From Platanthera guangdongensis (taxonomy: Eukaryota > Streptophyta > Magnoliopsida > Asparagales > Orchidaceae): a DNA stretch of 64,000 nt. The stretch spans positions 72,590,757-72,654,756 of the forward strand of contig CM077165.1 of NCBI GenBank assembly GCA_039583875.1. Direction: 5' to 3'. Shown here piece after piece: positions 8,301 through 44,191 of the stretch; the stretch's first letter is position 1, and each line of letters starts with the position of its first letter. Below the pieces are notes generated by a model. It was given only the letters and a program-made list of their open reading frames with translations, was not told the DNA's origin and made no database searches. The position numbers were made by a program, and so were the translations under genes.

Positions 8301-8417
8301 ACTTGGCAATTTTTCTGGAAATTCCTGAACCGGATTCTGCCGCTGTCAATGTTCTGGACCAGGATTTAGGGATTCTTCTTGTGGGTCCCACAACGGTCAT
8401 ATTGAAAGCATCTACGG

Positions 8418-8425
8418 TATATATA
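8418..8425 (+). promoter_or_regulatory. TATA box of element A LTR
   Basis: TATATATA in U3, downstream of the inverted-repeat array. It is conserved at 15971-15978 in the 3' LTR, where a neighbouring C has become T. Confidence 0.65.
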
Positions 8426-14830: not shown

Positions 14831-15161
14831 AGACTACAGTAGATTCAGGCTCGTGCAAGCACTGAAGGGGAGCAAGGTACTCAAGATGAGCACAGGAGCA
14901 AAAACTGAGGGGGATCAAGGTACTCAAGTATGAGCACAGGTGCAAGCACTGAGGAGGAGCAAGGGGTCAATTGCTACCGACCCCGATTTGCAGAAGCCGA
15001 AAAGGGGGAGATTACCCTCTCGGCTAAGGCTAAGGTGGCTCCAAGCTTGCTCCCAAGGAATTGGTATTGGTAATGAATAACTCACTCAACTCAATTTCAA
15101 GTTTATGATTTTCATTCCTATACGCTTCATTCACCTTAGCTTGTAGGGTTTAGGCTTCTTC
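14831..15161 (+). repeat. Element A 3' UTR with direct repeats
   Basis: Non-coding spacer between pol and the polypurine tract. At 14850-14965 a roughly 50-60 bp unit recurs about twice (GAGCAAGGTACTCAAG..., GAGCACAGG, GCAAGCACTGAGG). Unlike B and C, there is no third ORF and no palindrome array here. Confidence 0.6.
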
Positions 15162-19051: not shown

Positions 19052-19857
19052 TGTTGAGTACATTGGTCTTAATGTACTTGATTTGAAGAAGTTATCTCAG
19101 CTCAATGATATACACATTGTTGTATTTGATGGCTGTTAAGTTTATTTATGCAGGTTAATAAAGCTAAGTAAAATGTGTCGACACTCAGGACTAGTGTCGA
19201 CACACATTGAACAAGTTGTGTCGAGATAAAGAAAGTTGTGTCGACACTAAGGACAACTATGTCGACACACTGTGTCGACACTCAGGACTTGTGTGGACAC
19301 ACTCTACACAAGATGTGCCAAGACTGAAGGAAATTGTGTCGATATACTCTATACAAGCTGTGTCGAGACTGAATATAACTGTGTCGACACTCAGGACTAG
19401 TGTCAACACATTCCAATCAAGCTGTAACAAGACAGAAGAAACTGTGTCGACACACCAGACTCGTGTCGACACATTCCACAGAAGTTGTGTCGAGACAAGT
19501 TGAAGAGCATTGCTGACACATTTAGAAGTGCGTCGACACCACTACAGTGTTGTGTCGACACCCAGGACAAATGTAAACACATTTCACAGCCAAGTCTCAA
19601 CACTTCAGCAGACTTATTTCCAAAGTACAGATACCAAGACTGAGATACTGACAGTTGTCAGAACAGTTAGTTATTAACCGGATCTACCGGTTACTCCTGT
19701 CAGAGGCTATTTAAAGGGTTGCAGTTTTCAGAAGAAGAATATAAAGAAAGAAAGAGAGAAAAACAGAAGAAGCAGCACAACCTTGAAGCTTCAGGTACAA
19801 TTAAGAATGTGGAGAGAGGTCAGATCAAGAATCATCTACAACATCTCTGTTGGGTAC
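19052..19857 (+). mobile_element. Element C 5' LTR, first part
   Basis: Starts TGTTGAGTACATTGG, similar to B's LTR start. It holds an array of GTGTCGACAC and GTGTCGAGAC at 19177-19605 and a TATTTAAA box at 19708-19715, then leader sequence up to the ATCTC (19853-19857) that B duplicated on insertion. Confidence 0.85.
19177..19605. repeat. GTGTCGACAC array (C LTR)
   Basis: Irregularly spaced copies of the perfect 10-bp palindrome GTGTCGACAC with variants GTGTCGAGAC, GTGTCAACAC and GTGTCGATAT. The array ends about 100 bp before the TATTTAAA box. Confidence 0.88.
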
Positions 19858-19993
19858 ATTGGTATTAAATGTACCTGATTTGAAGAAGCCTCACCCTACT
19901 CAATGATATACATCAAAATGTATTTGATGTATTTTGAGTTATCTTGTGCAGGTTAAGTATTTACAGGGAAAACTGAAAAGTTTCTAAGTCCAT

Positions 19994-20865
19994 GTGTCTA
20001 CACCCAGGAGCAAAGTGTCGACACTTAAGAAGACTTGTGTCGACATCCAGACAAGCAGTGTCGACACTTGGAGTCATTGTGTCGACACTAGGGATGCAGA
20101 GTCGACACTAGAAGGAAAGTGTCGACACATACAGGGTGTGTCGACACTCAATGAAGAAATGTCCAGTGAAGCAGTGTTGACACTTAGAAGCAGTGTCGAC
20201 ACCCAGAGGAACTGTGTCTACATCAAAAAGTGTCGACACTTGGAGGCTATGTCGACACTCAACAAGTTCAACAAATTCTAAGTGCAAGTGTCGACACAAA
20301 GGAGATGTGTCGACACTCAGCCAAAGACTCAATAGAAGAAGAAAGTGTCGACATAAAGGATCAATGTTGACACACAGCCAAAGTCTCAACAGTAGAAGAA
20401 TGTGTCGACATAATGAAGAATGTGTCGACACACAGTAGAAGTCTCAACACATGAAGAAAGTGTCGACACAAGGAGCTGTGTTGACACTCAGCAATTTCTA
20501 TGAAGACTAAGTACAAGTGTCGACACCAAGCAGATGTGTAGACACTCAACAAAAGTATCAACACTGAAGGCATGTGTCGACACTAAGAAGATGTGTCGAC
20601 ACTTAACAAGTTCAACACAAGAAGATGTGTCGACACAAAGGAGTTGTGTCGACACTTACAAGAAATCAACAGAGTACTGAAGAACAAGGAGTTGTGTCGA
20701 CACACATTATCAGTGTCGACACATGATGAAGAAGCTGTGTCGAGAAGTAATTTCTACAACACAAGGAGTTGTGTCGACACCTTGAAGGCTAGTGTCGACA
20801 CTTAGTCTACTTGTGTCGACACTTAGTCTACAAGTGTCGACACTTAAAGACAGACTGTCTCGACA
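19994..20865. repeat. GTGTCGACAC palindrome array (B, 5' LTR)
   Basis: By eye I count about 22 exact GTGTCGACAC copies in about 870 bp, plus many one-base variants. Spacing is irregular (about 15-60 bp) and intervening sequence is unique and AG-rich. Many variants are GTGTTGACAC or GTGTCAACAC, the products expected from CpG deamination. The matching array of the 3' LTR is at 39225-40105. Confidence 0.93.
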
Positions 20866-21000
20866 CTTTCAGACAGTTACAGATATTTCAAGAAGTGTCT
20901 GGATGACATGACAGCTGTCATTCCAGCCGGTCTACTGCAACTTTCAGAGTTGTCAGAAAGTCGTTAGAAACCGGATCAGCCGGTCACAATGAAGAAGACC

Positions 21001-21008
21001 TATATATA
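21001..21008 (+). promoter_or_regulatory. TATA box of element B LTR
   Basis: TATATATA followed by GGCC, about 130 bp after the array. The same box is at 40234-40241 in the 3' LTR. Confidence 0.7.
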
Positions 21009-21838
21009 GGCCTATTCTGTCAACAGAAGAAGACGATTCACACAAGATCTAGCAATTCATTGAAGATTCAATTCAAGTGAAGATCTAAGAAGTTGGAGAG
21101 AGAGAGCTCCTTCCGAGAAGACAGCCGTTGGAACCAAGCTGTGAAGAAGGTTTCAGATCAAGGTCTGATTCTTAAGTTGCAGTGATTGAAGATCAGCTGC
21201 AGAGAGTATCAACCCTATTGTGTTCTACATTCAAGAAGCTTTGAAGAAAGCCAAGTGAGGTTGATCTCAGCAGAGTTCTTCCAAGAACTCATCAAGAAAC
21301 CTGTCAACTCTTCTCTCTTATTCTGAGTTGAGGTTTTACACTTTGTATTCTTAATTTCTTGTAGGATCCTTAGGGATCTGAGTTGTAATCCTGTAATTAT
21401 AAAGGCTGAGTGGTAGGGCCTGTGTGCCTGAGTGTAGGAGATCTATTTCTCTAAGTGTAGGCCTGTTGTGGCTGAGTGTAGGCCTTGTTTAAGGCTGAGT
21501 GTATGTCTTTGTGAAGACTGAGTTGTAGGGCCTTGGGCCCGAGCTGTAGGAACCATTTGGGGTTCTGAGTGTAAGATCTGTGGATCTGAGATATAGTGGA
21601 GGAGTTTGGCCGAATCTAGTACACTACTAGATAGGCGAAGGGGGAAAGTGGATGTACCCAAACCTTGGGGAACCACTATAAATCTGTGTGTTCACTGTGT
21701 GCATGCTTTATTCTGTGATGTTGTGTATGCTGTGGATAGTTCTGTGAAATCTGTGATATAATCTGCCTAAAAGTTTAAAGAAGATTAAGTCACCTATTCA
21801 ACCCCCCTCTAGGTGATTAGGGTACAATTTCTTTCAAG

Positions 21839-21851
21839 TGGTATCAGAGGG
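21839..21851 (+). other. Element B primer-binding site (initiator Met tRNA)
   Basis: TGGTATCAGAGGG lies two bases after the 5' LTR and matches the initiator-Met-tRNA complement over its first eleven bases. Confidence 0.87.
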
Positions 21852-21939
21852 AGGTTGCTCAAAAAGGACATAACTGTCTGAGTAGATCCTGTTGGCAGAT
21901 TCAGCTTTAATCAAGTGCAAACTTAAGAAAATCAAGAAA

Positions 21940-23991
21940 ATGGGTTCCACAGAGAATCACAAAAAACTTGAATCCATGAAGTTGCCAATATGCAGAAAGG
22001 AGATTTTTGGCATTTGGAAAGAAAGGGTGAGACTATTTATGGAAGCCTCAGACCCTAGAATTTATATCACAGTTAAAGAAGGGTCATATGTGCCTATGAA
22101 GGTATCTGTGTTAGATGCAAATCAGAGAACACCTAAGAACTTTTCTGAAATGACAAAAGATGAGATTATTCTGGCCACCATGGACAAGAGGGCTCAGCAT
22201 ATCATTATAAGTGCCATAGATGATGCTACATTTCAGAACTTGATACACTGTAAAACATCAAAGGAGATGTGGGATACACTGATAGTGTACATGGAGGGTT
22301 CAGAAGAAGTTAGACAAGACAGAAAGTCTTTGTTAAACCAGGAATATGAAAGTTTCAGGCAAGGCATGTCTGATAGTATAACAGAATGTTATAAGAAATT
22401 CTATAGGATTGTCAATGAGTTGATGTCCTATGGAAGAGAATTCAGCAATTATGAGCTGAATGATAAGTTCTTGAGGTCCCTAACAAAGGACTGGGACACC
22501 AAGATCTGTGTCATAAGGGAAATGACCAAGTTAGCAGATATTCCTCCTCCAACATTATTTGGAAAAATGTTATCCTATGAGATGCAGTTGATGGTAAGGA
22601 AGGAGGAGGAGAAGACTACAAGAAGTGAGCATAAAGAAAGAGCAGTGACATTCAAGACAGAAGCCACCAAGAAATATAAAAGCAAGTCTCCATCTCCACC
22701 TCCAAAAGTGGCTGAGACAGAGTTAGATGAATCAGAAGGCAGGAATTCTGAAAGCAGTGAGAGTGATTAGTACTTTACAGCTTTCACAAGACACTTTCAG
22801 AAGTTTCTAAAGAAGAAACAGTGGAGATCAAAGCCATCCACTTCACAGTGAAAAGATGACTATTATCAGAACAAGAAGTCATCAAAGAAAGACAGGAGAA
22901 AGACCAAGTCAAGCAAAGCAACTTTATCAAAAATTGTATGCTATTGCTGTAACAGACAAGGACATGTTGTTGCAGACTGTCCAGAGAAAAGGAAAGAGTC
23001 AACAGATAAGAAAAAGACTCAATTCAAGGGCAAGAAGGAAAGGTCCTTTGTTGCCAAGAAGGACAAAATCCTGTCAGACATATCTTCTTCAGAAACTGAG
23101 TCAGAAGCTGAAGCATAAATATGACTGTTTGCTGAAGAAGAGGAAGAGGAGTTCATCCAGATAATGAACTCTATATATGAGCAAGATGACATTCAGTGCA
23201 AAGGACTGATGGCCTTAACAGAAGGTGACAAAATCCAGGATCAGCCTGGACCTACTCAGGTATAAAATTGTTCTTTAAGTTCAATTTCTAGTGCTAGTTC
23301 AGATTCAGTTACATCAGCATCAAGTGATGCCAGTGGATCAGAATCTGAAGGGGATATTCATCAGTTGATTGATGAATATAGAGTACTGTAGCATGCTTTT
23401 AAGAAAAGCAAATCCTTGGCCAAAAGTCAGGCTAAGGAGATTGCTAATCTTAAAGATGCTGCAACAGATTTTGAGAAGTTGTTTGATCAAAAGCTAAATG
23501 AAATAGCCAGACTGAAGCACATAACTGTTATTCAGATGGGGACTATAACATTTAAGAATGATCAAATCAAAAATCTGGAGATTAGTCTTCAGAAGGAGAG
23601 AGATATAGTAGCAAGGTTCTCTAAACCAAAATCAGTTCTACCTTTGATAGATGAGTTTATACCTCACAAGGGTAAAACTAGATTAGGGTTTACACAACCA
23701 GCTAGGACTTTAAAGTCCAAGTCTAAGGGCAAAGCCCCAGTACTCAACAAGTCTGCTGTAGATAGAACAACTAGGGTTGTACGTAAGCAAAAGTACAATA
23801 GATTTGAGTGTTGGGGCTGTGGCAAGGTAGGCCACTTTGCCATGGACTGTTGGCACAATTCAAGTGCCAAAGTGAGTAGCAAACTGCCTGTTGGAAGATC
23901 TGCAGGTAGCTTTGTTAAGAGGCAAACTAACCAGCACCAAGGACCCAAAATTCTTTGGGTTCTAAGGTCAACTAATCTGTTTTGCAGGTGA
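21940..23991 (+). pseudogene. gag: Element B Gag with six in-frame stops
   Basis: The first ATG in the conserved frame is at 21940 (MGSTENHKK). The capsid region has FGIWKERVRLFMEASDP and DKFLRSLTKDWDTKI. The frame to 22770 is open, then TAG 22768, TGA 22849, TAA 23116, TGA 23122, TAA 23263 and TAG 23389 break it, all in the same frame. The first zinc knuckle (C-Y-C-C, G-H, D-C) is at about 22935-22979, between stops. A coiled-coil region lies at 23416-23640. A second knuckle (C-W-G-C, G-H, D-C) is at about 23807-23850. It ends near LFCR at 23991, overlapping the pol start by a few bases. It encodes the virus-like-particle shell and RNA-binding protein and is inactive as written. Confidence 0.88.
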
Positions 23992-25418
23992 GTCCAAGTG
24001 GCTATGCCCCAATATGGTACTTGGACAGTGGATGTTCCAGGCACATGACTGGAACTAGAGGATTGCTAAAGGACTTCACACCAATCAAGGATGGTCCTAA
24101 AGTCACCTTTGGTGGTTCTGAAAAAGGAATCATCAAAGGTTTTGGTAACATTTCTAGCAACCTTATAACAATTACTCAAGTGACCTATGTTAAAGGTTTG
24201 AAACATAACCTTATTAGTATAAGTCAACTGAGCGATTTAGGATATGACATCTCATTTGTCAAATATGGTTGTCATATCAGGAGGTCAAATGATCAAGAGA
24301 TCATTTTGACGGGTTATAGAAAGATAAATGTCTATTGTCTAGACATTATGAGTGAGAACAATGCTTCTCTAGTGTGTCTTGTAGCTGATGAGAAAGTGTC
24401 TCATTGTGTCAAATGGCACAAGAGGCTAGCCCATCTTAACTACAAGACAATTGGCCAACTCTATAACAAAGAGTTAGTGAGAAATGGTCCTCAGGTTAAG
24501 TGTATTAAAGATGGGATATGCTCAGCTTGTCAAAAGGGCAAGTAGACTAGATCCACCTTTAATAGCATTGAGAACAAAGATGCTGTGAGGTGCTTATACC
24601 TCTTGCATATGGATCTCTTTGGTCCTATGCCAATTCACAGCCTAGGTAGGAAGCTCTACACATTTGTGGTTGTAGATGACTACTCAAGGTTTTCCTGGGT
24701 GTTCCTCCTTAGACAGAAATCTGAAACACCTAGTATCTTCTATAGTTTTGTCAAACAAATTCAGAATGAGTTAGACAGTACAGTGGTCAAAATAAGAAGT
24801 GACCATGGTATTGAATTCTAGTCTGATAGTATGATAAAACTATATGAAGAATTTGGGATATTTCAGGAATTTTCTTCACCAAGAACACCTCAGCAAAATG
24901 GCATTGCTGAAAGGAAAAATAGAACCTTGATTGAGGCTGGTAGAACCCTATTAAGTGACACATCTCTCCCAGAATATTTCTGGGCTGAGGCAGTTAATAC
25001 TGCATGCCATGTAATTAATAGGGCTACCATTACTAAGAGCCATAATAAGACCCCCTATGAGATTGTGAAAGACAGAAAACCAAACCTATCCTATTTCAGG
25101 ATCTTTGGTTGTAAATGCTATATACTTAACAATGTGAAGTCTTACTTGACCAAGTTTGCTGCCAAGTCCCAAGAGGGGATCTTTGTTGGGTACAACAACA
25201 ACAGTAAGGCTTATAGGGTCTACAACTTGACTACACAAGTTGTAGAGGAGTCAGTACATGTAGTATTTGATGAAGCCAGACTTATTAACCATGAGTTGTC
25301 TAGAAGTATTTGCAGCTCCACAGGTATGACTAAGAAGATGAACAAGCTCACTATTGATGAAGGATCTACTACAAGTCAGCATGTAGATGATAATGGCTGT
25401 TGTCCAGGGGAGTACTAG
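23982..25418 (+). pseudogene. Element B protease and integrase
   Basis: This lies in the -1 frame relative to Gag and starts after TTTTGCAGG. It has the protease WYLDSGCSRHMTG motif, the HHCC domain (WHKRLAHLNYKTI), and the integrase core with Asp in HMDLFGPM (24612), Asp in SDHGIEF and Glu in NGIAERKNR. In-frame TAG stops occur at 24543 and 24819, and the frame ends at TAG 25416, where a frameshift near 25400 moves on to RT. All three catalytic acidic residues of integrase are still encoded. Confidence 0.87.
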
Positions 25419-27146
25419 ATGCACCTGATGCAGAAGAAGATCAAGGAGTGCAGCAAGTTGAAGAAGATGAAAGAGTTCAACCTGGAGCCAGGCTGCCTCC
25501 AGCTACTAGGAACCTAAGAGATCATCCAGCAGATCAAATTATTGGTGATCTAAGACAAGGGGTACAAACAAGGAGCAGAAATCTTAGTTCATTCTACTCC
25601 AATTTTCTATCCCAAGTTGAGCCAAAGAAATTTGAAGAAGCCATCCTAGACCCTCATTGGATTGAGGCAATGCAAGAGGAGCTGAATCAGTTCAAGAGAT
25701 GCAAAGTCTGGGAGCTTAATCCTAAACCAAAAGACCACAACATAATTGGGACTAAGTGGATCTTCAGGAACAAGATGGATGAACATGGAGTTATTATAAA
25801 GAACAAAGCAAGACTGGTTGCTAAAGGATATAGGCAGGAAGAAGGTATTGACTTTGATCAGACCTTTGCTCCAGTAGCCAGACTGGAAGCCATAAGAATG
25901 TTCCTGGCCTATGCAACCTATCAAGGGTTTAAAGTATACCAAATGGATGTTAAGTCAGCCTTTTTGAATGGCAATCTGAAGGAAGAGGTCTATGTGGAAC
26001 AGCCATCAGGTTTTGTTGATTCAACTCAACCTAATTATATCTATAGACTTAGGAAGGCTTTGTATGGGTTAAAACAAGCCCCTAGGGCTTGGTATGAAAC
26101 CCTGTCTAGTTTCCTCATTGAGAATAAATTCACAAGGTGGAAAATAGAGAAGACTCTATTCCTTAGGGAATCCAGAGGCAAGATCATACTAGTCCAAATA
26201 TATGTAGATGACATTCATATTTGGGTCTACTGAAAGTAGTCTTTGCAGAAAGTTTGCAAAACTTATGCAATGACAATTTGCGATGAGCAGTATGGGGGAA
26301 CTTAAGTTCTTCTTGGGTCTCCAAGTTAGACAGGTTGAGAATGGTTTATCCATATGCCAGTCTAAGTTCACCCTAGAACTGATAAGGAAGTATGGTATGC
26401 AATCATCCAGTACCATGAAAACTCCTATGGGGTCAAGTATGTCTCTTAGCAAAGATGATGCAGGGAAACCTGTAGATGAGACTTTGTATAGAAGGATAGT
26501 TTGATCCCTATTGTATTTGACTGCAAGTAGACCAGATATCATGTATGCTACATGTGTCTGTGCTAGGTACCAAGCTTGCACTAAAGAATCTCATTTGACA
26601 GCAGTCAAAAGGATACTGAGATATCCAAAGGGCACACCTTTTCTAGGCCTTTGGTACCCTAGGAATGGAGACTTTGAACTGACAGGTTATTCAGATGCAG
26701 ATTTTGCAGGCTGCAAAGAAGATAGGAAAAGTATAACTGGTACCTGTTAATTCCTAGGTGGAAGACTGATATCTTGGAGTTGCAAGAAACAAACAAGTGT
26801 GGCTATCTCCTCAGCAGAATCAGAATATGTGGCTGCAGGAAGTTGTCGTGCTCAACTTCTATGGATACAACATCAGCTTGAGGATTATGGTATTCAGGTA
26901 AGTAGAACACCACTATTTTGTGATTCTACTAGTGCTATATCTATTGCAAACAATCCTGTTTCCTATAGTAGAACTAAACACATTGAAATAAAATATCATT
27001 TTCTAAGGGAACATGTGGAAAAAGAAGATATTTCACTAGAATATGTCAATACAGATAATCAACTAGCTGACATGTATACTAAGCCTTTAGAAGAAATCAA
27101 ATTCAATAGGTTTAAAATTGAATTAGGTATGATAAACTTAGAATAA
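25400..27146 (+). pseudogene. Element B reverse transcriptase and RNase H
   Basis: The frame to 26233 carries the RT fingers and palm ([34 protein letters not shown]) and the catalytic YVDD at 26201-26212. A small indel immediately after it shifts frame, so the frame ends at 26233. The RT thumb and RNase H continue in another frame (26240-27146) with in-frame TGA at 26270, TGA at 26502 and TAA at 26748. RNase H acidic residues are seen in [18 protein letters not shown] and FCDSTSAI. It ends LGMINLE. Confidence 0.88.
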
Positions 27147-27174
27147 GTTTACAGAAATGGCTAAGTAAAATAGT

Positions 27175-27640
27175 GTCTACACACAGAGTTGTCTGTGTCG
27201 AGACAGAGAATTGGTGTCGATACTTCAGAGAAAAGGTGTCGACACATCTAGGAAGTTGGTGTCGACACTTCAGAAAATTAGTGTCGACACATACAGGATA
27301 GGTGTCGACACATCCAAGGTGGTGTCGACACTTAGACTTTTTGCAGAATTAGTGAAGTAAAGTATTGATCAAGTGTCGAGCTAAGCAGTGTCGACACATA
27401 AACAAGTGTCAACACATATATTCTGTTGACTAAACTTATGTCGACACATAGTTGTCGAGACATCATAAGTCTGTGTCGACACCTTTCCCCAGTGTCGACA
27501 CAATTTAAGTTTATTAACGCGCCCTTTCATCTTCAATCCTAGAAAGGTATAAATAGGATTTCACCATTGTCTGTCGACACGCTCACCAAAGTTTCGAGAC
27601 CAAACTTGTGTGTCGACACCTCTCTTCTCTCAATTCAAAT
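27175..27640. repeat. GTGTCGACAC array in the pol-ORF3 spacer of B
   Basis: About nine exact GTGTCGACAC copies plus variants (GTGTCGAGAC, GTGTCGATAC, CTGTCGACAC) fill the 500 bp between the end of pol (27146) and the third ORF. Most copies lie upstream of the TATAAATAG at 27548 and two or three lie between it and the ATG. It is the same motif as in the LTR but at an internal site outside either LTR. Confidence 0.9.
27548..27556 (+). promoter_or_regulatory. Candidate internal TATA box before ORF3 of B
   Basis: TATAAATAG, 106 bp upstream of the ORF3 ATG at 27654 and directly after the spacer array. Element C has TATAAAT at 47734-47740, 125 bp before its ORF3 ATG, in the same arrangement. The role as a second promoter is inferred. 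Confidence 0.5.
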
Positions 27641-27653
27641 TCTTCAAACCCTA

Positions 27654-27978
27654 ATGGCGCCCAAGCTCGAAGAGAACGTGAATGAAGGATATGAACTGGT
27701 GCGGCATGCGTTTGATGACGCAGAACCAGAGATCAAGGATGTGGTAACCCTAGTTGCAAACTCAGGGTTAGATTTTCTTGTTTCAGAGCCGACCAAGATA
27801 TGGAAGAAAGAAGTTCTGGAATTTCTGAATGGAGCATACCTAGATGAATCAGGACTAAAGATTAAGTCTAGGGTTCATGGGGCAAAGGTGAAGATCTCAT
27901 CTAAGAGTTTGAGAAAGGTACTAAACCTACCAAAAACTAAGGAAGAAGTTGAAGTTTCTGCTTCTAAGACTAGAGAAG
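27654..27978 (+). pseudogene. Element B third ORF, N-terminal part
   Basis: Starts at ATG 27654 (MAPKLEENVNEGYE). The same frame is open upstream but only through palindrome repeats, so this ATG is preferred; C has the equivalent MAPKMDDHIKE start. About 108 codons are followed by element E, inserted with an AGAAG duplication. The reading frame resumes exactly in phase at 36307. The sequence (IWKKEVLEFLNGAYLDESG, then KVKISSKSLRKVLNLPKTKE) is not Gag, Pol or a recognisable envelope. It faintly resembles the N-terminal domain of the family called putative plant transposon protein (from memory, low confidence). Confidence 0.72.
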
Positions 27979-28147
27979 TGATGAATTGTAAATATACCTA
28001 TTTTTCTGTACATTAATTTAGTCATTTTCATTTCTTTTCGTCTTTTTTATATATTTTTGGTTAATAAATTGCTCCTTATTTATAAATAATTTTGCTGACT
28101 TGCTTTATTTTTATTTTTCATAAAAAATTAAAATCTGCCAAAAATTG

Positions 28148-28690
28148 ACATGTCATGCCCGTGACCAGGGCGTGACACGTCAAATTCCAGTCAATCAGCA
28201 AATTTTGAAGAGCAAAGCTTGACACGCCCCCTATCACGCCCGTGTCACCCGACACGGGGCGTGACCCAAGCCCGTGTCCACCCGCTCAACGTTTTCATCT
28301 CAACGATCGTCGACACCAGCCGACACGCCTAGCGTCATGCCCGTGACCTAGGGCGTGACACCTCTTTCCGCTCGACGATTTTCAACTCGACACTTTCCGC
28401 TCGACATTCGTCGAGTGTCTACACCTGCCGACACGCCCAGAGTCACGCCCGTGACCTGGGGCGTGACCTTTCCAGCTAGCCCGACAAGACCTGCCCGAAG
28501 ACTTTCGGCGCAACCCGCGCCTAGATCAACCTGCTTGACATGCCCAGCGTCACGCCCGTGACCTGGGGCGTGACCACTGCGAGACCGACACGTGTCCAGC
28601 CCGAAGTCCACTTTCCCGTCAAATCGCCGGCCGCCTTCGCAAATAGTACTGTCACGCCCCCTGTCACGCCCGTGACCAAAGGCGTGACCC
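28148..28690. repeat. GTCACGCCCGTGAC array (E, 5' LTR)
   Basis: About seven to nine copies of a dyad with arms GTCACG and CGTGAC around CC, often extended to GCGTCACGCCCGTGACC and followed by a half-site GGGCGTGAC about 5 bp on. Between them lie CTCGACATTCGTCGAG-type dyads (28400-28416). The same array in the 3' LTR is at 33560-34105. It ends about 20 bp before the TATA box. Confidence 0.9.
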
Positions 28691-28704
28691 ATGTAAATTT
28701 TTTC

Positions 28705-28711
28705 TATAAAT
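28705..28711 (+). promoter_or_regulatory. TATA box of element E LTR
   Basis: TATAAAT directly after the inverted-repeat array; repeated at 34117-34123 in the 3' LTR and, on the minus strand, at 2643-2649 in the Athila-like LTR. Confidence 0.65.
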
Positions 28712-29318
28712 TCAGAGCTTCTGCTTAGGATTTCTGTTCCTTTTTTGAACCACTTTGCTTAGGGTAGGTGCTGCCGAATTGCCTTCTCATGCTATGTAAG
28801 GGATTTTCTTCCCCCTCTCTTAGTGTTTGTTTTTAGCTTTCTTGTAATCACTTTTTCATTAATAAAATGTGTTAGTTTTTTCTCTCTTTGCATAGCTTGG
28901 AATCCATTCATGCGCCCTACTCGAAGTGATTTTTAATGTTTGTTCTTATTTTGTTTTTCTTTTATGTCTTCTAAATCTTTTTAGCTTTTAACTTTTGTCT
29001 AATTTCTAGCCGTTATAATCGCAATTTTATTTTCATGCAAATACTTGTTTAGGTTTACTTTATTATTTTTACTTTGTTTTCATTCCTATAAGTTTATAAA
29101 ACAATGTTTTAAAAGGTGATTTTTAATTTTCTTTTAACTTAGGCTTTTTAGGATTGTAAAACTTTTCGTTCTCTTTTAGTCTTATTTCCACTTTTTAGGC
29201 GTTTCTATAAAATTATAAGAATGAAAACATAATCGTTTTAATTTTTCAAGCTTTTTTCATTTTTGTTTTTATTTCAAAAAACTTTTTCCTTATTTACTTT
29301 TTTCGTTCTCTTTTTATG

Positions 29319-29458
29319 CATTTCTACCGCATTCTAGTGGTAGAAATGTTTTCGTTTTAATTTTTCGTGCACTTTGATTTTTCGTTTAAACTTTTGCCCC
29401 TTTTATTTTTATTTCAGCTTTTTATGCATTTCTCCCGCATTCTAGCGGTAGAAATGCA
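29319..29458 (+). repeat. Pair of strong hairpins in E LTR
   Basis: Hairpin 1 has arms CATTTCTACC (29319-29328) and GGTAGAAATG (29339-29348). Hairpin 2 has 14-nt arms at 29425-29438 and 29445-29458 with one mismatch. Both have the loop word ATTCTA. In the 3' LTR the first copy pairs perfectly over 12 bp (about 34729-34758). They lie in the transcribed leader, so they could fold in RNA. Confidence 0.75.
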
Positions 29459-29645
29459 GTTGTTTTCATTTTTAGACAACTTAGTTTTTTTTTACTTTTT
29501 TCTGTACTTGTGCGCATTTATTTCCGCCTACTCGTTAAGAGTTAAATGGCGCTCGCTTATTTTACTTTCTGTAGAGTGCGTGAGTTTGTAATTTTCTTTC
29601 TTTCCACCTACTCACTTGAGTTAAATGGCTGGATTTTATTTCGGT

Positions 29646-29815
29646 AGAGTGTGTGTGTTTTCATTTATGTCGAGAGTGTGTGTGTTTTCATTTATGTCGA
29701 GAGTGTGTGTGTTTTCATTTATGTCGAGAGTGTGTGTGTGTGTTTTAAATTCAGTAGAGTGCGTGTGTTTTACTTTATGTTGAGAGAGTGTGTGTGTGTG
29801 TGTTGCATTTATTTA
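29646..29815. repeat. 27-bp minisatellite and GT-rich tract
   Basis: Three to four units of 27 bp start AGAGTGTGTGTGTTTTCATT at 29646, 29673, 29700 and 29727, then degenerate GT runs continue to 29810. The matching tract in the 3' LTR is at about 35056-35215. It opens frames full of Val-Cys-Val that are not genes. Confidence 0.88.
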
Positions 29816-30898
29816 GTCCTACTCATTTGAGTAGGACCAGCTTTCTTTCTCCCGCCCACGCATTTGCGCCGGGACTCGCACTTTACAGCTTTCTTCAGTC
29901 CTACTCGTTTGGGTAGGACTTGCAATTTACTGCTTTATTTTACTGCTTTCATTTTATCGCTTTCATTTACTGCTTTCTTTATCGCTTTATTTACTGCTTT
30001 TCACCGCAAGCCGTCCCCATTCCGATGAGTGGCTAATCGTTCTTAACCCTCGGCATCGAAGAGCATTGGGACAGATAAAATAGCTTAAAATAATTAAAGG
30101 TCTAATCTTTTTAATTAAAAGTACTTAAGGTTTGCCCGGGGTTAACGACGCGTAGGACCACATATCGATGTGTGGGCCCTATTTCCGTTTTCCATACGCT
30201 CGCCGAGAGGCCGTGCGTATGGACAGATCACCCCTTGGCAAAGCGAGTTTCGCACTAACCCTCGAGAGAGGAGGCGCGCCAACTCTACCGGATTGGATTC
30301 CCCACCCAATAGCGGGGTTCTTAGCGTAATGCGGGCATTAAGAGGAATCCTTCGTCGGACGAGAGCCCGGTCGAATAGTCTTAGCGTTCAGGTGAGCGAT
30401 AGCCCTATAGCTAGGTGAGCTCATTTTAGTGGAACCTCTACGGCCAAGTCTCCGCCTTAATTAATTAGAAATTTAGGAGCTCTTTTTATTTAAAGTCTAT
30501 TTTAGTTCAATTGTTTTTTCGGTGCCATCGAGCTAAGCTCTTCATCGGCACCACCTTCTTACTTTCATTTTCTTTCTGTCATTTTCTGCTTTTTCTTATA
30601 TATAAAATACCCGACAAGTATTATCGGTAAAATAATAGTCCCCTCCAGGAAAGAGTAGAAATAATCGAACCAACCCCGAGAACAATATGACCTCGGTATT
30701 CCCCCGAATATCGAGTACTACTTGCGATAGGTGCACTTGCCTCCTTTCGTTAAAACTCGATCTAACCTGTTTTATATCCAAATAAATAAATATGCGCGCC
30801 CCGTTTTCTAAATAAAATCACTTCGCTTTTTTCTCAAATCAAACCGCCGGGTCGCCGCGTGACCGTAAATAATTTTGGAGATTTAACCATCAAGTTTT

Positions 30899-30915
30899 TG
30901 GCGCCATTGCCGGGG
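30899..30915 (+). other. Element E primer-binding site (Asp tRNA)
   Basis: TGGCGCCATTGCCGGGG, six bases after the LTR end. It is complementary to the plant Asp-tRNA 3' end (TGGCGCCGTTGCCGGGG, from memory) with one mismatch. Asp-tRNA priming is known from plant Athila and Tat elements. Confidence 0.85.
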
Positions 30916-33390
30916 AAACCGTCGTTTCGTTATTTTGAACCCTGGAACTCTATTAATTTTACCTATATCTATATATATCAAAAATTAAAAATGGCCAACA
31001 ACAATATAAAAATAATAATAATAAAAAAAAACTATACAAAAAAAATTACAAAATTATATAAAAAAAATTTTTAAAGAAAAACTTATAAAACTAAAAAATT
31101 TTTTTGCAAAACCTTAAAACTTAAAATTTGAAAAAAAAAACTATAAAAATTCAAAAAAAACTAAACTAAAAAAAAAACCTAAACTAAAAATCCAAAAAAT
31201 GAAAAAAAAAACTTAACAAAAATATTTTTATTGTCATTATTGTTTTTGAAAAAAACAAAAAACAAAAAAACACTATAAAACAAACACAACTAAAAAAAAA
31301 ATTCGAAAAAATGAAAAACTTAACGAAACAACAAAAAAACTTATATTTTCATTATTTTTATAAAAAAAAACTAAAAACTAAACAACCTACCTAAAAAAAA
31401 TCAACTAAAAAAATAAAATAGCTACTTAAAAACACCAAAAATAATATATATTAATAAATCTATATATTTTTATTTAACTTCTTTTATTTTAATTTGTTTT
31501 ATTTTGTTTCATTTTACTTCGGCACGCTTCCATTATTGTGCGCGCTAGGGGATCACATATTTATCACGCAGTGGTCGCTAAGGCCTTAGCTACCTTCGAC
31601 TCCACCACGCACTTGCCCCCCTACCGCCTGCAACCCTTTAGCCGAATTTTTCGTTTTTTGTTTTTTCTATTATTGTTTTGCTATTCTTTCCTCTTCTAAT
31701 AATAATGCAGGGTTTCGACCTGGGCCTCCCGGACTCGTCTAAGGGAAGCTCCTACCCTCCCTTTTTCTTTTTGTACTTATTATATTTTGTATCTTATCTG
31801 TTCCGCATACTTAGATTGCAACATTGGGGAAAATGTTGGGTTTAAGTATGGGGGTGTTTTCCTATACTGCTTTTTTATTTTGTACTCATCAAAAATACAA
31901 AAAAAATTGCAAAACATAAAACATAAAAAATTTTTCCTTGTTTTTATTATCATAAAACTTCAAAAAAATTCTCTTCCCCCCATCTTCTTATTTGTAAAAG
32001 CTTGCATTCTGCCTGCCCGCGACGTTCGACTCATCGAACCAACCATTCAAATAAGAGTCTGTTCGCGGGGGCTGCATTCGAGTTTTTACTTTGTACTTTA
32101 TTTGTAAAAATCTCTCTTTTCCCCCTATCTTCTTTAAATCACACTTCTTTCTCTTCTCATTCTTGTAAATTACTTATCATAAAACACTAAAACATCAACA
32201 AAAAAATTAGAAAAACCAAAAATCCTAAAAAAAGAAAATAACTCTAAAAATCTTAAAAAGATAATAATTAAAACACAAAAAAAAATGATAAAAACTCTAA
32301 AAATTCCAAAAAAATGTTTTGTTAAATTATGTAACAAAATAATTCGAATATACCATATCTTAACCCTTTTTGCTTACCAAAAATCTAGTTTCGAGTTAAT
32401 TTATATGCGAATTTTAGTTATTCTTTGCTTACTATTCGTTTATTAATTAAAGTTCGATAAATTTAAGTATCTGGGGTTAAGATTTAAAAAAAATTTTATG
32501 TCTTTTCCTTATAATAGAGAACTTGTTTTTCACCACCACTTCTAATTTTATAAATAGATGCTCGTTTTTTATGTTAGAAAATAACATCCATGAATTTCAA
32601 TTATTTCTACTCTTTGCTTTTAGAAACATTGGAACGTTCCTTTTAAAAAGGTTGCTCTTAAAACTTTTTTATTAAAATCTAGTTTTCTTTTTGAAAAAAC
32701 TAAACCCACTTCCTTTTTTTCATGTCTTACTTGACATGTTTTCCCCTATCCCTTAAAAGATCTTATGTCAATGGGAATAAGATTTCATTCCGTAAACATA
32801 GGCACCCAATATTTAAAAAGATTATATGTTATGGAGTAAGAGGATAAAATTCATTACTCCTACACATATACATTGGGTTATTTATTACTTATGAAGAAAA
32901 AAAATTTATGTGTTAGGAAAATAAGATTTCATTTTCCTAACTATCAAAAAAGAAAAAAATTGGAGGTTCGAGAAAAAATTGTCTCGCCTCAATATTCAAG
33001 CCTTCTTCATAAACCACCAAACCACTTATCTCATTTCAATGATTCTAGACTTAATTTAAAATTTTTTTGAGAGCATAATTTTTAAATTGCATTATTTCCT
33101 TTAACTTCTTTTAAGCTAAGGTTTTTTGTATAAATCCAATCCATCTTTGTTAAACTAACAAAAATGAATTTTTGCTTTTTATTTTATTTTATCTAGGAGT
33201 CTTTTTTGAAACTCTTCCTCTATTTATAACATTTCATAAATTAGGATTTAATTTTTTAACCCCGGATATTTATTTTGATCTTACTTTTAATTAATTCAAG
33301 CGGTAGCTAAACTTATGATTTCTTTTATTCCTTATAAGTTCACCTCCAACTTTTGCTCTGGAATAGCAAAAGCTTAAGTATGGGGGTATT
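30916..33390 (+). mobile_element. Element E internal region, no coding capacity
   Basis: A-rich low-complexity DNA (30960-31440), then a GC-richer island (31515-31650) with a frame of about 45 codons, then T/A-rich sequence to the 3' LTR. Within it is a purine tract at 31841-31856 and a small dyad CCCGCGA/TCGCGGG (about 32016-32065). No protease, RT, integrase or Gag motif is seen in any frame. It ends with the purine tract AAGTATGGGGGTATT (33376-33390). Confidence 0.85.
31841..31856 (+). other. Second, internal purine tract in E
   Basis: TTTAAGTATGGGGGTG is almost the same as the terminal tract CTTAAGTATGGGGGTA next to the 3' LTR (33373-33388). It is preceded by a small dyad, AACATT (31820-31825) and AATGTT (31832-31837). 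It could be a relic of the pol end of the parent element, or a functional central tract. Confidence 0.6.
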
Positions 33391-36301
33391 TGATGAATTG
33401 TAAATATACCTATTTTTCTGTACATTAATTTAGTCATTTTCATTTCTTTTCATCTTTTTTATATATTTTTGGTTAATAAATTGCTCCTTATTTGTAAATA
33501 ATTTTGCTGACTTGCTTTATTTTTATTTTTCAGAAAAAATTAAAATCTGCCAAAAATTGACATGTCACGCCCGTGACCAGGGCGTGACACGTCAAATTCC
33601 AGTCAATCAGCAAATTTTGAAGAGCAAAGCTTGACACGCCCCCTGTCACGCCCGTGCCACCTGACACGGGGCGTGACCAAAGCCTGTGTCCACCCGCTCA
33701 ACGTTTTCATCTCAACGATCGTCGACACCAGCCGACACGCCTAGCGTCACGCCCGTGACCTTGGGCGTGACACCTCTTTCCGCTCGACGATTTTCAACTC
33801 GACACTTTCCGCTCGACATTCGTCGAGTGTCGACACCTGCCGACACGCCCAGAGTCACGCCCGTGACCTGGGGCATGACCTTTCCAGCTAGCCCGACAAG
33901 ACCTGCCCGAAGACTTTCGGCGCAACCCGCGCCCAGATCAACCTGCTTAACACGCCCAGCGTCACGCCCGTGACCTGGGGCGTGACCACTGCGAGATCGA
34001 CACGTGTCCAGCCCGAAGTCCACTTTCCCGTCAAATCGCCAGCCGCCTTCGCAAATAGTACTGTCATGCCCCCTGTCACGCCCGTGACCAAGGGCGTGAC
34101 CCATGTAAATTGTTTCTATAAATTCAGAGCTTCTGCTTAGGATTTCTGTTCCTTTTTTGAACCACTTTGCTTAGGGTAGGTGCTGCCGAATTGCCTTCTC
34201 ATGCTATGTAAGGGATTTTCGTCCCCCTCTCTTAGTGTTTGTTTTTAGCTTTCTTGTAATCACTTTTTCATTAATAAAATGTGTTAGTTTTTTCTCTCTT
34301 TGCATAGCTTGGAATCCATTCATGCGCCCTACTCGAAGTGATTTTTAATGTTTGTTCTTATTTTGTTTTTCTTTTATGTCTTCTAAATCTTTTTAGCTTT
34401 TAACTTTTGTCTAATTTCTAGCCGTTATAATCGCAATTTTATTTTCATGCAAATAATTGTTTAGGTTTACTTTATTATTTTTACTTTGTTTTCATTTCTA
34501 TAAGTTTATAAAACAATGTTTTAAAAGGTGATTTTTAATTTTCTTTTAACTTAGGCTCTTTAGGATTGTAAAACTTTTCATTCTCTTTTAGTCTTATTTC
34601 CACTTTTTAGGCGTTTCTATAAAATTATAAGAATGAAAACATAATCGTTTTAATTTTTCAAGCTTTTTTCATTTTTGTTTTTATTTCAAAAAAATTTTTC
34701 CTTATTTACTTTTTTCGTTCTCTTTTTATGCATTTCTACCGCATTCTAGCGGTAGAAATGTTTTCGTTTTAATTTTTCGTGCACTTTGATTTTTCGTTTA
34801 AACTTTTGCCCCTTTTATTTTTATTTCAGCTTTTTATGCATTTCTCCCGCATTCTAGCGGTAGAAATGCAGTTGTTTTCATTTTTAGACAACTTAGTTTT
34901 TTTTTACTTTTTTCTGTACTTGTGCGCATTTATTTCCGCCTACTCATTAAGAGTTAAATGACGGTCGCTTATTTTACTTTCTGTAGAGTGCGTGAGTTTG
35001 TAATTTTCTTTCTTTCCGCCTACTCACTTGAGTTAAATGGCTGGATTTTATTTCGGTAGAGTGTGTGTGTTTTCATTTATGTCGAGAGTGTGTGTGTTTT
35101 CATTTATGTCGAGAGTGTGTGTGTTTTCATTTATGTCGAGAGTGTGTGTGTGTGTTTTAAATTCAGTAGAGTGCGTGTGTTTTACTTTATGTCGAGAGAG
35201 TGTGTGTGTGTGTTGCATTTATTTAGTCCTACTCGTTTGAGTAGGACCAGCTTTCTTTCTCCCGCCCACGCATTTGCGCCGGGACTCGCACTTTACAGCT
35301 TTCTTCAGTCCTACTCGTTTGGGCAGGACTTGCAATTTACTGCTTTATTTTACTGCTTTCATTTTATCGCTTTCATTTACTGCTTTCTTTATGGCTTTAT
35401 TTACTGCTTTTCACCGCAAGTCGTCCCCATTCCGATGAGTGGCTAATCGTTCTTAGCCCTCGGCATCGAAGAGCATTGGGACAGATAAAATAGCTTAAAA
35501 TAATTAAAGGTCTAATCTTTCTAATTAAAGTACTTAAGGTTTGCCCGGGGTTAACGACGCGTAGGACCACATATCGATGTGTGGGCCCTATTTCCGTTTT
35601 CCATACGCTCGCCGAGAGGCCGTGCGTATGGACAGATCACCCCTTGGCAAAGAGAGTTCCGTACTAACCCTCGAGAGAGGAGGCGCGCCAACTCTACCGG
35701 ATTGGGTTCCCCACCCAATAGCGGGGTTCTTAGCGTAATGCGGGAGTTAAGAGGAATCCTTCGTCGGACGAGAGCCCGGTCGAATAGTCTTAGCGTTCAG
35801 GTGAGCGATAGCCCTATAGCTAGGTGAGCTCATTTTAGTGGAACCTCCACGGCCAAGTCTCCGCCTTAATTAATTAGAAATTTAGGAGCTCTTTTTATTT
35901 AAAGTCTATTTTAGTCCAATTGTTTTTTCGGTGCCATCGAGCTAAGATCTTCATCGGCACCACCTTCTTGCTTTCATTTTCTTTCTGTCATTTTCTGCTT
36001 TTTCTTATATATAAAATACCCGACAAGTATTATCGGTAAAATAATAGTCCCCTCCAGGGAAGAGTAGAAATAATCGAACCAACCCCGAGAACAATACGAC
36101 CTCGGTATTCCCCCGAATATCGAGTACTACTTGCGATAGGTGCACTTGCCTCCTTTCGTTAAAACTCGATCTAACCCGTTTTATATCCAAATAAATAAAT
36201 ACGCGCGCCCCGTTTTCTAAATAAAATCACTTCGCTTTTTTCTCAAATAAAACCGCCGGGTCGCCGCGTGACCGTAAATAATTTTGGAGATTTAACCATC
36301 A
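33391..36301 (+). mobile_element. Element E 3' LTR
   Basis: 2,911-bp copy of 27979-30892, from TGATGAATTG to AACCATCA. The order of parts is identical: array 33560-34105, TATAAAT 34117-34123, hairpins about 34729-34870, minisatellite about 35056-35215. Followed by AGAAG (36302-36306). Confidence 0.92.
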
Positions 36302-38843
36302 AGAAGCATTAACATGGTGTGGACTGGATTCCAAGATGAAAATAGGATCTGTTTTCAATAGGAAGGGGATGAACAACCAAGGCAAATTCTTATCTGAAAT
36401 AGTTGGAAAAGTGATCCTGTGCAAGTCTGGAGGATATGACAGGATTTCAGCATATATGTTCAGTCTAATGACAAGGTTAATCTTCCAACTAAATACTAAT
36501 TGGTCTGCAGTATTGTTTGATAAGATAAAGGAGAGCCTGAAGAAACCCAATTTGGGTAGGATTCTAAGTCTTTACTTGGCTGGTAGTATACCAGAAGTAA
36601 TGAGACAAGCTGCAGGATCAAAGATCAATCACATGAGGAAGATGAACATGAGAATCTTCTCTAGATGGGATAGGATCTTAACCAAGGAATTGCCAACTCC
36701 TGAGAAAGTAACACCCCTAAAGAAGAAGAAGAAGATAGCCCCAGTGGCTCAAGAATTCTCTAGTAGCTCTGAAGAGCAAGTTGTCTTTACTCCAGATGAT
36801 GAACAAGATACTGGAAATGCTGGAAAGTCTCCAACTAGACAAGATGATGCAGAGAGACAGGGGGAGCTACCACAGGCTAGCCCACTTCCCCAGGATTCCA
36901 TCCAGGGGGAGCCTCTACTGGTTGAAGAGCCAACTCCCTTAGAAAGTGAAAGAGCCACTCAAAACATTCTTGAGGTAATCACTGAAATTAATCAATTAGA
37001 TTTCCTTATTGAGAGTGAAGTTATAATTGACAAATTATCTGATGTTAATCAGCAACCTCAGATTCATAGTCAACCCCCAGATGTTGTCATGGAGGACACA
37101 TCTGTTGCAGATCAAGTAGTATCTGATCAAGTTGTTGATGAGACAAGAGAATCTCCACCCCATCCTCAACAAGAATTTACCCTAGAAGAACTATTCCCAG
37201 ATCTTCTACAAACAGACTTTGAGAAAGAAAGTGGTGCTGCTGAGGGGGAGAATGCTCATGTTGAGGGGGAGCAAGTAGTTATTGTTGAGGAAACTGTAAG
37301 GAAGGAACCTGAAGTGCAGAAGGAGTTACCTCCAAGCCCTAAGGACATGGTTGATATTGCAAGCACATCTGCTTCTGAAGATGAGGAGGCTGTCAGAGCT
37401 AAAAAGAGAAAGTTTCAAGTCTTCAAGTGGAGATGCCAAAATTATAAGAAAGCTCTGCAAACTATATCACCACAGCCTACACCACAGCCAGCACCATCTG
37501 CAGATTACAGTTCTCTGATGATTGCAATGCAGATAAATCTTGATGAGCAAAGACAGGCTTTGCAATCTTATATGGATGAAGGACAAAAATCTCTACAGTT
37601 TGATCTGGCCTAAGATATTAAGTCCATCAGATTTGAGATGAATCTGAATAAGAAAGAGATGACTGAATGCTTCCACAAGGGAGGGAATGCAGTGGTCTAC
37701 TTGGCTACACATCAAGAGAAGATCAAAGCTTAAGTAGATGAACTTGTAGTGAAGCAAGGCTATGTTCTGGAGAATCAAATAAGAATGAATGATAATTTGA
37801 CAGCTTCCCACAATGTTATTGTAACTGAACTAAAGAATATAGCAACTTCCCAGAATGCAGCCCTGACTACTGCCAAAGAGGAATTTGACAAAGCATTGCA
37901 AGAAAGCCTAACTGCTGTTACTACTGCACTTCAAGATTCCCAGAAGCTCATCACTGAAAAGCTCCAAAGGTTGAAACCTTTCTACAAGGATGGAGTAAAT
38001 TATCTTAATGCCCAAATAAGATTCCAGAAAGATGATCTAAGAGATCACATTGAAAGAGAAGTCATAAAGGGGGAGAGGGTGTTAGTCAAAGCAGGCTCTG
38101 ATCATGCAAAATGGTTTTCCAATTCCATCAGAGCCACCCTTGGATATCCTCCATTATGTGATGATGATAATGTTGCAGAGTCTGGGATTAATCCTGCATA
38201 TCTTGGAGGGGAACAAGCTGAAGTGGCTCAAGTAATTTACCCTCCACCAGACTTTGATATGATACAAGCAGATATACAGTCAATGTATAGCCCACCTGAG
38301 GGAAAGCAAAATGTCATCATAGAAAAAGTGGTTCAGCCAGTGCCTGAGGCTATACAAGAAGCTATACTGAAGGAACAAGCAGCCCAATTGTCTAAGAAGA
38401 GGTTCAGAGAGCAAGCTGAACAAAGGCCTGATTTTGAACAGTGGAGCCCCACTTCAAGGAATATCATTCTGACTGCATGGAAGGCTGCCAAAGACAATAT
38501 TGTGGACAGAGGCAAATGGTATTCTGATGTGGAGTGGAGGAAGCATGAGAACAGGCAAGAAGCCATTGTGCAGTATAGAAGAAAGGCAAAGATGGGAAAG
38601 CTACCTCCTACTGCCCAGGAGCCTAGCAAGTACTTTCCCAAGCCTTATCATTATTTTGAAAGGCAAAAGATCAAGGCAGAGGAATTGAAAAAGAAGGATC
38701 TGAAAGGCAAGAAGCCTGCTGCTGCTGAAGATGCTGAAGCCCCAGTCCAAGCAAAGATACAATCTGGAAAGGGCATAGTGATCAAGGAGACTGAGAAGCA
38801 ATCGGATAGAATTTATCTTTTGTTTACAGTTGTAATCATTTAG
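36302..38843 (+). pseudogene. Element B third ORF, main part
   Basis: Continues the frame that starts at 27654: after the AGAAG duplication, coding resumes in phase. Total about 953 codons, broken by TAA at 37611 and TAA at 37731. Parts in order: the end of a folded N-terminal domain (NQGKFLSEIVGKVILCKSGG, then FSLMTRLIFQLNTNWSAVLF, to about 36660); an acidic, Pro/Glu-rich and probably disordered middle (36700-37400); a helical, coiled-coil-like region (about 37500-38060); and a basic Lys/Glu-rich tail (38380-38800). I see no signal peptide, no membrane segment in the body and no enzyme motif, so it is unlike an envelope protein despite its env-like position. Role unknown. Confidence 0.75.
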
Positions 38844-39080
38844 TTTTAAAACTTTCTGTAAACTTTTGGATAATGATATTGTTGAAGTTCTGAGAACTAT
38901 GTAATGTGTGATAAATCTATTACATTAAATGTTCTGAGATATTTGTTATACATGTTTTGATTATTACATGTTTATGAATTAACCCTGTTAAATAATCCTG
39001 TTTTACATCATACTGTAATTTTGTTATGTATGGTGTATATCATTGACTAAGGGTTATGAATTCTCCAAATAGGGGGAGAT
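38844..39080 (+). other. Element B 3' UTR and polypurine tract
   Basis: AT-rich spacer of about 220 bp after the third ORF. It ends with AAATAGGGGGAGAT (39067-39080), the same plus-strand primer as in A, directly before TGTTGGG at 39081. Confidence 0.85.
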
Positions 39081-41073: not shown

Positions 41074-41078
41074 ATCTC

Positions 41079-41845: not shown

Positions 41846-41858
41846 TGGTATCAGAGGG
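41846..41858 (+). other. Element C primer-binding site (initiator Met tRNA)
   Basis: TGGTATCAGAGGG, identical to B's primer site, just after the LTR. Confidence 0.85.
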
Positions 41859-41922
41859 AGGTTCACTGAAATATGGCATAACTTCCTAGTGAGAATCCAA
41901 GGATTGCAAAGAAAGAAACATC

Positions 41923-44183: not shown

Positions 44184-44191
44184 ATTTATGT

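Follow-up and report, generated by a model that had tools for sequence, protein, structure and literature searches.

The 507-bp spacer that separates pol from an extra open reading frame (ORF3) in element B, an apparently Sirevirus-type retrotransposon of Platanthera guangdongensis, is best explained as an internal RNA polymerase II promoter, a reading that its sequence makes moderately probable. With a second copy of the palindrome array of the LTR, then a TATA box, then a short leader running to the ORF3 ATG, the spacer would allow a separate ORF3 mRNA to be made under the same transcription factor or factors as the genomic RNA; the array would act as an enhancer, and transcription would start about 25–35 bp after position 27548. 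An internal promoter that reuses the LTR module had been proposed in an earlier, sequence-only reading of this DNA, and it gains support here from the layout of a second element (C), from a leader retained in a Platanthera protein record (P0001), from the distribution of CpG dinucleotides and from the stop codons of the spacer. The accompanying claim that the arrangement is new does not stand, as the layout has already been published for Sireviruses (PMC2829016).

In nine env-containing Sireviruses, palindromic motifs lie in the LTR, 5' of a conserved TATA, and again in the linker, where 77 of the 79 motif copies stand before env (PMC2829016; Bousios et al., 2010). The same paper credits the internal-promoter hypothesis to Peterson-Burch and Voytas (2002) and states that the promoter had not been conclusively identified (PMC2829016). 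New here are a TATA box located at corresponding positions, the evidence from CpG dinucleotides and an array whose motif matches a known nutrient-response element.

Nested elements and Sirevirus hallmarks

Plant LTR elements are nested in one another across the 64-kb window, that is, the whole stretch of DNA analysed (Table 1). The two LTRs of B are 96.7% identical. Its ORF3 is interrupted by element N, in which no + strand ORF of at least 150 aa was found, and a further repeat-bounded element, D, appears to break ORF3 of C after the first codons.

Table 1. Coordinates of the elements, arrays and candidate signals in the window
Feature	Position	Strand	Remarks
Element A LTRs	about 7590-9283 and 15176-16835		copia type
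Element A LTR arrays	7925-8295 and 15511-15848		palindrome about AATCGGCGAGAATCACTAGTGATTCTCGCCG, with CGG-CCG; unlike B/C motif
C 5' LTR, left part	19052-19847	+	8 exact motifs; array 19175-19603; split by B insertion
B 5' LTR	19848-21836	+	TSD ATCTC 19843-19847, same as right TSD 41074-41078
B 5' LTR motif array	19994-20866	+	37 copies with ≤2 mismatches, 22 exact GTGTCGACAC
B LTR TATA box CTATATATAG	21000-21009	+	fits published Sirevirus LTR TATA motif (PMC2829016)
B PBS junction, gag, pol	21837-27146	+	copia type; pol stop TAA 27144-27146
B spacer array 5' of TATA	27173-27501	+	14 copies with ≤2 mismatches, 8 exact
Block CCCTTTCATCTTCAA in B spacer	27522-27536	+	14/15 identical in C spacer (47708-47722)
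B internal TATA box TATAAATAG	27548-27556	+	aligns with TATAAATTG of C
Motif copies between B TATA and ATG	27571-27619	+	three, at 27571, 27591, 27610
B ORF3, 5' piece	27654-27978	+	ATG 27654; 7 non-motif CpGs, 27658-27790
Nested LTR element N	27979-36301	.	LTRs 27979-30892 and 33391-36301, 98% identical; TSD AGAAG; breaks B ORF3
Rest of B ORF3	36307-38843	+	more in-frame stops; one CpG in 2.5 kb
B terminal polypurine tract AGGGGGAG	39071-39078	+	starts exactly 10 bp 5' of 3' LTR
B 3' LTR	39081-41073	+	23 exact motif copies; TSD ATCTC 41074-41078
C 5' LTR, right part	41079-41843	+	runs to PBS junction; end approximate
C gag-pol	41844-47286	+	~70% identical to B
C spacer array 5' of TATA	47398-47665	+	13 copies with ≤2 mismatches, 3 exact
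C internal TATA-like box TATAAATTG	47734-47742	+	125 bp 5' of C ORF3 ATG
C ORF3 start (ATGGCACCAAAG...)	47859-47915	+	apparently cut by element D; end approximate

Sirevirus-type Ty1/copia elements are the best explanation of B and C. A copia-type RVT_2 was found with Pfam, and the hallmarks of the genus scored here are the non-coding ones. The octamer AGGGGGAG was scored in A and B, the 3' end of C lying outside the window, and in both it stands exactly 10 bp 5' of the 3' LTR (15166 against 15176 in A, with another copy at 15003; 39071 against 39081 in B, with five more at 36859, 36904, 37243, 37264 and 38068). The LTR/PBS junctions of B (CA/AGTGG/TATCAGAGG) and A (CA/AGTGG/TATCAAAGC) each depart by one base from the rule CA + A(T/G)TGG + TATCAGAGC; the junction of C reads ATTGG/TATCAGAGG, with the CA of the LTR degraded. 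In Sireviruses a C-rich integrase signal precedes the end of the LTR by 21 bp on average (PMC2829016), and CCCC(C/T)CTAGG occurs at 21804 in the B 5' LTR (stopping 23 bp short of its end), at 41041 in the B 3' LTR and at 41804 in the C LTR.

The five upstream octamers of B all fall inside ORF3 in one shared reading frame (QGE/EGE/KGE), and the Platanthera homologues likewise repeat QGE. The multiple polypurine tracts of the genus thus seem to be embedded in coding sequence in B, whereas most published Sirevirus ones lie after env.

A palindrome array before the LTR TATA and again upstream of the extra ORF is present in B and C. This many-copy arrangement, with CpG islands at both sites, is like that of the RM boxes of env-containing Sireviruses (PMC2829016). 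The motif itself differs: a CGG-CCG core characterises 12 of 13 published motifs, Tnd-1 being the exception, but is missing from the B/C motif GTGTCGACAC, and GTGTCGACAC is absent from Table 3 of that paper. B and C are therefore filed as a variant among env-containing Sireviruses with repeated motifs.

No ORF3 was seen in element A, and between the end of its pol and its 3' LTR no array is listed except a 44-bp tandem repeat (14853-14964). With a motif in the LTR only and no ORF3, A agrees with the published rule for env-less Sireviruses. It is flanked by CTATC and CTGTC, possibly a decayed target duplication.

The array and the TATA box in front of ORF3

The sequence-only reading had described about nine exact palindromes in the B spacer, followed by a TATA box and the ORF3 ATG, and the same module in the LTR. 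All of these features are confirmed. Nine exact copies of GTGTCGACAC start at 27236, 27259, 27281, 27302, 27322, 27388, 27473, 27492 and 27610, and TATAAATAG at 27548 is 106 bp from the ATG at 27654; the array of the B LTR is followed by CTATATATAG, with 22 exact copies and a TATA at 21001 in the 5' LTR and 23 exact copies and a TATA at 40234 in the 3' LTR. Eight of the nine exact spacer copies are upstream of the TATA box and one lies between it and the ATG. When up to two mismatches are allowed, the spacer (27147-27653) holds 17 copies from 27173 to 27619, 14 before the box and 3 after it. Variants of the motif are thus found 3' of the TATA box as well, so that the array straddles it, and the expected start, 25–35 bp past the internal TATA, would coincide with the first downstream copy. 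No ATG occurs between the TATA box and ORF3 in B; the corresponding interval of C has one (47746), before the expected start.

Chance does not explain the motif copies: the window contains 66 exact GTGTCGACAC and each of 100 dinucleotide shuffles contains none, while the B spacer has 15 copies with up to one mismatch against a mean of 0.05 and a largest value of 2 in 500 spacer shuffles. Within B the motif is restricted to the LTRs and the spacer, gag-pol (5.3 kb) and both ORF3 parts having zero copies at up to two mismatches. Spacing is also regular, gaps of 18–24 bp making up 12 of 14 in the spacer of B and 11 of 13 in that of C, and in the LTRs 27 of 36 (B) and 11 of 16 (C), where neighbouring gaps below 60 bp were counted and the random placements compared had no minimum spacing; helical phase at 10.5 bp gave a mixed result, and the claim is limited to the 18–24 bp range.

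The TATAWAW word alone is weak evidence. Among 5000 dinucleotide shuffles of each spacer, 0.66% (B) and 1.7% (C) have it 90–140 bp 5' of the ATG, a TATA-like word is present in 4.2% of the window's 51-bp stretches, and B has further TATAWAW words, three in gag-pol and one near the end of each LTR. The weight rests on its matching position in B and C. Element C, about 70% identical to B in pol, keeps both the array and a TATA-like box in its spacer: 13 motif copies are followed by TATAAATTG at 47734, by two motifs and by the ATG at 47859. Of the 15 C spacer copies with up to two mismatches only 3 are exact; C gag-pol has 0 copies at up to one mismatch and 1 at up to two, and the C LTR has a box one base off the consensus, CTATTTAAAG, at 19707, after its array. 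Just 5' of the TATA, the two spacers share CC(C/T)TTTCATCTTCAA (2 of 200 motif-masked shuffles score as high), and this DNA-level conservation concerns two elements in one window.

A third case of TATA and motifs at the same spacing fits the amino acids of P0001, an automated Platanthera zijinensis gene model in which a reverse transcriptase is fused to ORF3 and some of the leader is retained. Searches with two separate B ORF3 pieces matched Platanthera proteins only (five of five in each), and a search with part of P0001 gave four of four from Platanthera, P0001 itself among them; its reverse transcriptase is 88%, 78% and 89% identical to that of B over three segments. The B leader, which reads GINRISPLSVDTLTKVSRPNLCVD in frame, aligns without gaps to GINRSRTYSVDTLTRFSRLKPCVD of P0001, upstream of MAPK, and the codons of the B TATA box (GGT ATA AAT AGG) read GINR in frame. 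Identity is found at 13 of the 16 codons that touch the TATA or a motif and at 2 of the remaining 9 (one-sided Fisher P = 0.0065, with the split chosen after the alignment was seen), in a comparison with a single record that covers the first 25 of 36 codons, the remainder differing by one codon in length (36 vs 37). The first G of the P0001 GINR may derive from an upstream exon, and the exon junction, which adjoins the TATA, could itself indicate splicing. A TATA-like box at matching places in B and C, with this probable third, distinguishes these elements from those described by Bousios et al. (PMC2829016).

The leader was sought in P0001-P0005, P0011 and P0012, with P0006-P0010 outside the survey: P0002, P0003 and P0011 open with the start of ORF3, which P0005 and P0012 lack, and the stretch upstream in P0004 is not clearly leader. 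The 5' piece of B ORF3 is homologous to P0001, P0002, P0003, P0004 and P0011. In P0003, P0005, P0006 and P0011, ORF3 is fused into gene models that bear the names or contain the domains of a kinase, an annexin, a superoxide dismutase and a polyamine oxidase, so that these annotations appear to mix host and retrotransposon coding sequence. No envelope family exceeded the Pfam cut-off in the B ORF3 pieces, and the Platanthera homologues match Transposase_32 below the cut-off (best E 2.1e-07, 31.4 bits vs 45). Two pattern matches in viral contigs were judged to be chance, the contigs being phage-like from their ORFs alone, and a reverse transcriptase query against viral contigs matched 11 stretches, with no relative among them.

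As to the origin of the spacer array, a whole LTR fragment is rejected: motif-masked similarity between spacer and LTR is at chance both in B (57 of 200 shuffles as good) and in C (63 of 200), so that in B only the motif, and perhaps the left edge, is common to the two. The C LTR and the B spacer have the same left array flank, GCTAAGTAAAAT, and CTAAGT occurs at all four array edges. An unanchored comparison of the B spacer with the C LTR is equalled by 10 of 200 shuffles, and the 12-mer shared at their array edge by 7 of 3000 random 25-mers, both edges themselves being part of this null. This is the strongest of six edge comparisons; the B LTR and the C spacer have 8 bases in common (42 of 3000), and the remaining four pairs have 6 (321–451 of 3000). 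These values give a hint, from sequence comparison, that the spacer array may have begun as a copy of the left end of the LTR array.

Since insertion, the LTR pair of B has changed at 12 of 320 motif positions (3.75%) and at 34 of 1116 elsewhere (3.05%), with 3.62% divergence between motifs and 12 of 46 CpGs changed. Motif positions diverge as fast as the rest, so that this copy of B is not visibly under selection now and is decaying.

The CpG footprint and other routes to ORF3 expression

The coding body of B (gag-pol plus ORF3 from 27791) has 6 CpGs in 7,932 bp, with observed/expected ratios of 0.00–0.03 in its three parts; in eight window stretches outside B and C the ratio is 0.44 to 1.26. 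The B spacer has 19 CpGs, 16 of them inside motifs; another 7, all outside motifs, lie in the initial 325 bp of ORF3 (Poisson P = 8.7e-9 against the body rate). The CpG-rich stretch extends over the spacer and some 140 bp at the start of ORF3. In gag-pol and the larger ORF3 piece, no other 325-bp stretch exceeds 2 CpGs. Coding constraint is no explanation, because 6 of the 7 ORF3 CpGs are removable by synonymous transition. In the B LTR, the non-motif CpGs lie at 20928-21126, around the TATA at 21001, with three more in the last 300 bp. C gag-pol has 14 CpGs in 5.4 kb (0.08) and the spacer region is CpG-rich (0.99), its ORF3 remnant being too short to show the extension. CAG/CTG is not depleted in the bodies of B and C, so the loss is specific to CG.

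This pattern is read as the mark of LTR promoter and ORF3 promoter regions that would have escaped CG methylation or CpG avoidance in transmitted copies. CpG islands at LTR and pre-env sites were already reported, also in six env-containing Sireviruses without the motif (PMC2829016); what is added here is the contrast with a CpG-free body and the extension of non-motif CpGs into ORF3.

The coding bodies at 21940-27146, 36307-38843 and 41900-47286 are almost CpG-free (observed/expected 0.01–0.08), to which either methylation decay or selection against CpG may have led; CGN codons for Arg number 0 of 62 in four B coding segments against 28 of 90 in two A segments, and NCG codons among NCN number 1 of 233 against 35 of 303 in the same sets.

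Splicing of the genomic RNA is another route by which ORF3 could be expressed, with the pyrimidine block as the acceptor tract and the TATA-like box incidental; we consider it unlikely. The block CCCTTTCATCTTCAA is pyrimidine-rich and could indeed be such a tract: the acceptor-like site at 27542 in B has 12 of 15 pyrimidines upstream, a strong donor-like CAG|GTAAGT lies near 26897 within the RNase H (3') portion of B pol, and in the P0001 gene model pol is joined to the leader close to these two sites. Spliced env-like mRNAs have also been reported or predicted in other plant elements (PMC2829016, PMC7264820). However, the donor-like site is missing at the aligned place in C and A, C has AAAAG rather than YAG at the aligned acceptor (other acceptor-like sites of its spacer are at 47668 and 47775), and splicing leaves the motif array, the co-located TATA and the retention of CpGs into ORF3 all unaccounted for.

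The array might also be an RNA or silencing feature (hairpins, a source of small RNAs) or a passive remnant of the LTR, with no promoter at all, which seems more improbable still. RNA folding of the B spacer is far above that of shuffles (z = -7.84, 0 of 100 as good), and a 2016 paper reportedly assigned hairpin and small-RNA roles to the LTR palindromes of maize Sireviruses. Yet any repeated palindrome is expected to fold strongly; the 18–24 bp spacing in four arrays, the shared TATA-like box and the non-motif CpGs of ORF3 fit a DNA-level promoter better, and a passive remnant is not expected to be recognisable in both B and C while their coding bodies drifted to about 70% identity.

Like the soybean Sirevirus SIRE1, B, apparently of the same genus, has an extra ORF after pol, and its ORF3 is also in the pol frame; SIRE1 uses stop-codon suppression, its pol and env being parted by one stop (PMC2829016), whereas B has a 507-bp spacer and nine in-frame stops from pol's own to the ORF3 ATG, so that simple SIRE1-style readthrough is excluded in this copy. 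An internal promoter, the preferred reading, has a partial parallel in gene23 of Grande, a maize Ty3/gypsy element, which is an accessory gene between pol and the 3' LTR with its own promoter (PMC7264820). Unlike B ORF3, the Grande gene is antisense, and the account consulted from that paper does not describe its promoter as a copy of an LTR array.

A match to the zinc-deficiency response element

The motif GTGTCGACAC satisfies the zinc-deficiency response element (ZDRE), RTGTCGACAY, at all 10 positions. This is the site bound by the group-F bZIP factors bZIP19/23 (PMC9643250, PMC5826268, PMC5656842, PMC5476651), a family reported across land plants, of which some wheat proteins bind the element and rescue (PMC5826268, PMC5656842, PMC5476651). 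Exact RTGTCGACAY occurs 26 times in each B LTR, 10 times in the B spacer, 9 times in the left part of the C LTR and 4 times in the C spacer, and is absent from gag-pol in both elements. One more exact match is at 7576, just upstream of A, in the insertion-target sequence of that element. The same 10-bp element stands in the promoter region of ZIP and NAS genes; the ZDRE-bearing ZIP promoters surveyed have 1–4 copies, most of them two (PMC5476651), against the 10 and 26 of the B spacer and LTR.

Among 86 copies, which were chosen by similarity to the motif so that agreement is favoured, position 4 (T) is invariant, and position 5, where a change reportedly abolishes binding (PMC5476651), holds C in 50 of the 54 copies from B and in 30 of the 32 from C. 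In B conservation extends over 10 bp, and in C the preceding T is also favoured. Departures at position 1 are to A in 3 of 5 cases in B and 3 of 6 in C, and those at position 10 are to T in 4 of 5 and 2 of 3, respectively.

The likeliest activators of the array would be group-F bZIP factors of the bZIP19/23 type, a weaker step than the promoter itself, and both transcripts, genomic RNA and ORF3 mRNA, would then rise under zinc shortage. The ZDRE match could be coincidental. Given a real promoter, the chances are even that its motif is bound by a factor from outside group F: Sirevirus motifs vary by element (13 in Table 3 of PMC2829016, whose account finds no common single-factor site), the Vitis motif CGGTCGACCG also has a GTCGAC core and is yet no ZDRE, and position 8 is G, off the consensus, in 10 of the 32 C copies. 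Against this, the commonest word fits RTGTCGACAY throughout and the end positions of B vary mainly within the allowed set. A literature search, with subscription papers mostly outside it, found no link between ZDREs and retrotransposons among the matches listed; two listed papers that mention bZIP19 together with retrotransposons lack the phrase zinc deficiency response element, and for the 10-mer itself no title listed is that of a plant retrotransposon paper.

Zinc-starved maize roots lose methylation, mostly in transposable elements (PMC6307195), and this could act in the same direction as a zinc control of B and C. A fuller proposal, tentative and rather doubtful, is that an orchid Sirevirus lineage built its LTR and ORF3 promoters from dozens of ZDREs that zinc-sensing bZIPs would switch together, the persisting CpGs being a fossil methylation footprint of their use in vivo.

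Ever since the internal-promoter idea was put forward, it has been an open question how the extra ORF is expressed in Sireviruses, a genus abundant in plants. The candidate promoter described here is testable, having a located TATA, a layout present in two diverged elements and a named candidate activator, and the CpG readout offers a way of seeking internal promoters in other CpG-poor elements from sequence only. If zinc-sensing factors do drive this promoter, the micronutrient state of the plant would be linked to the activity of its retrotransposons.
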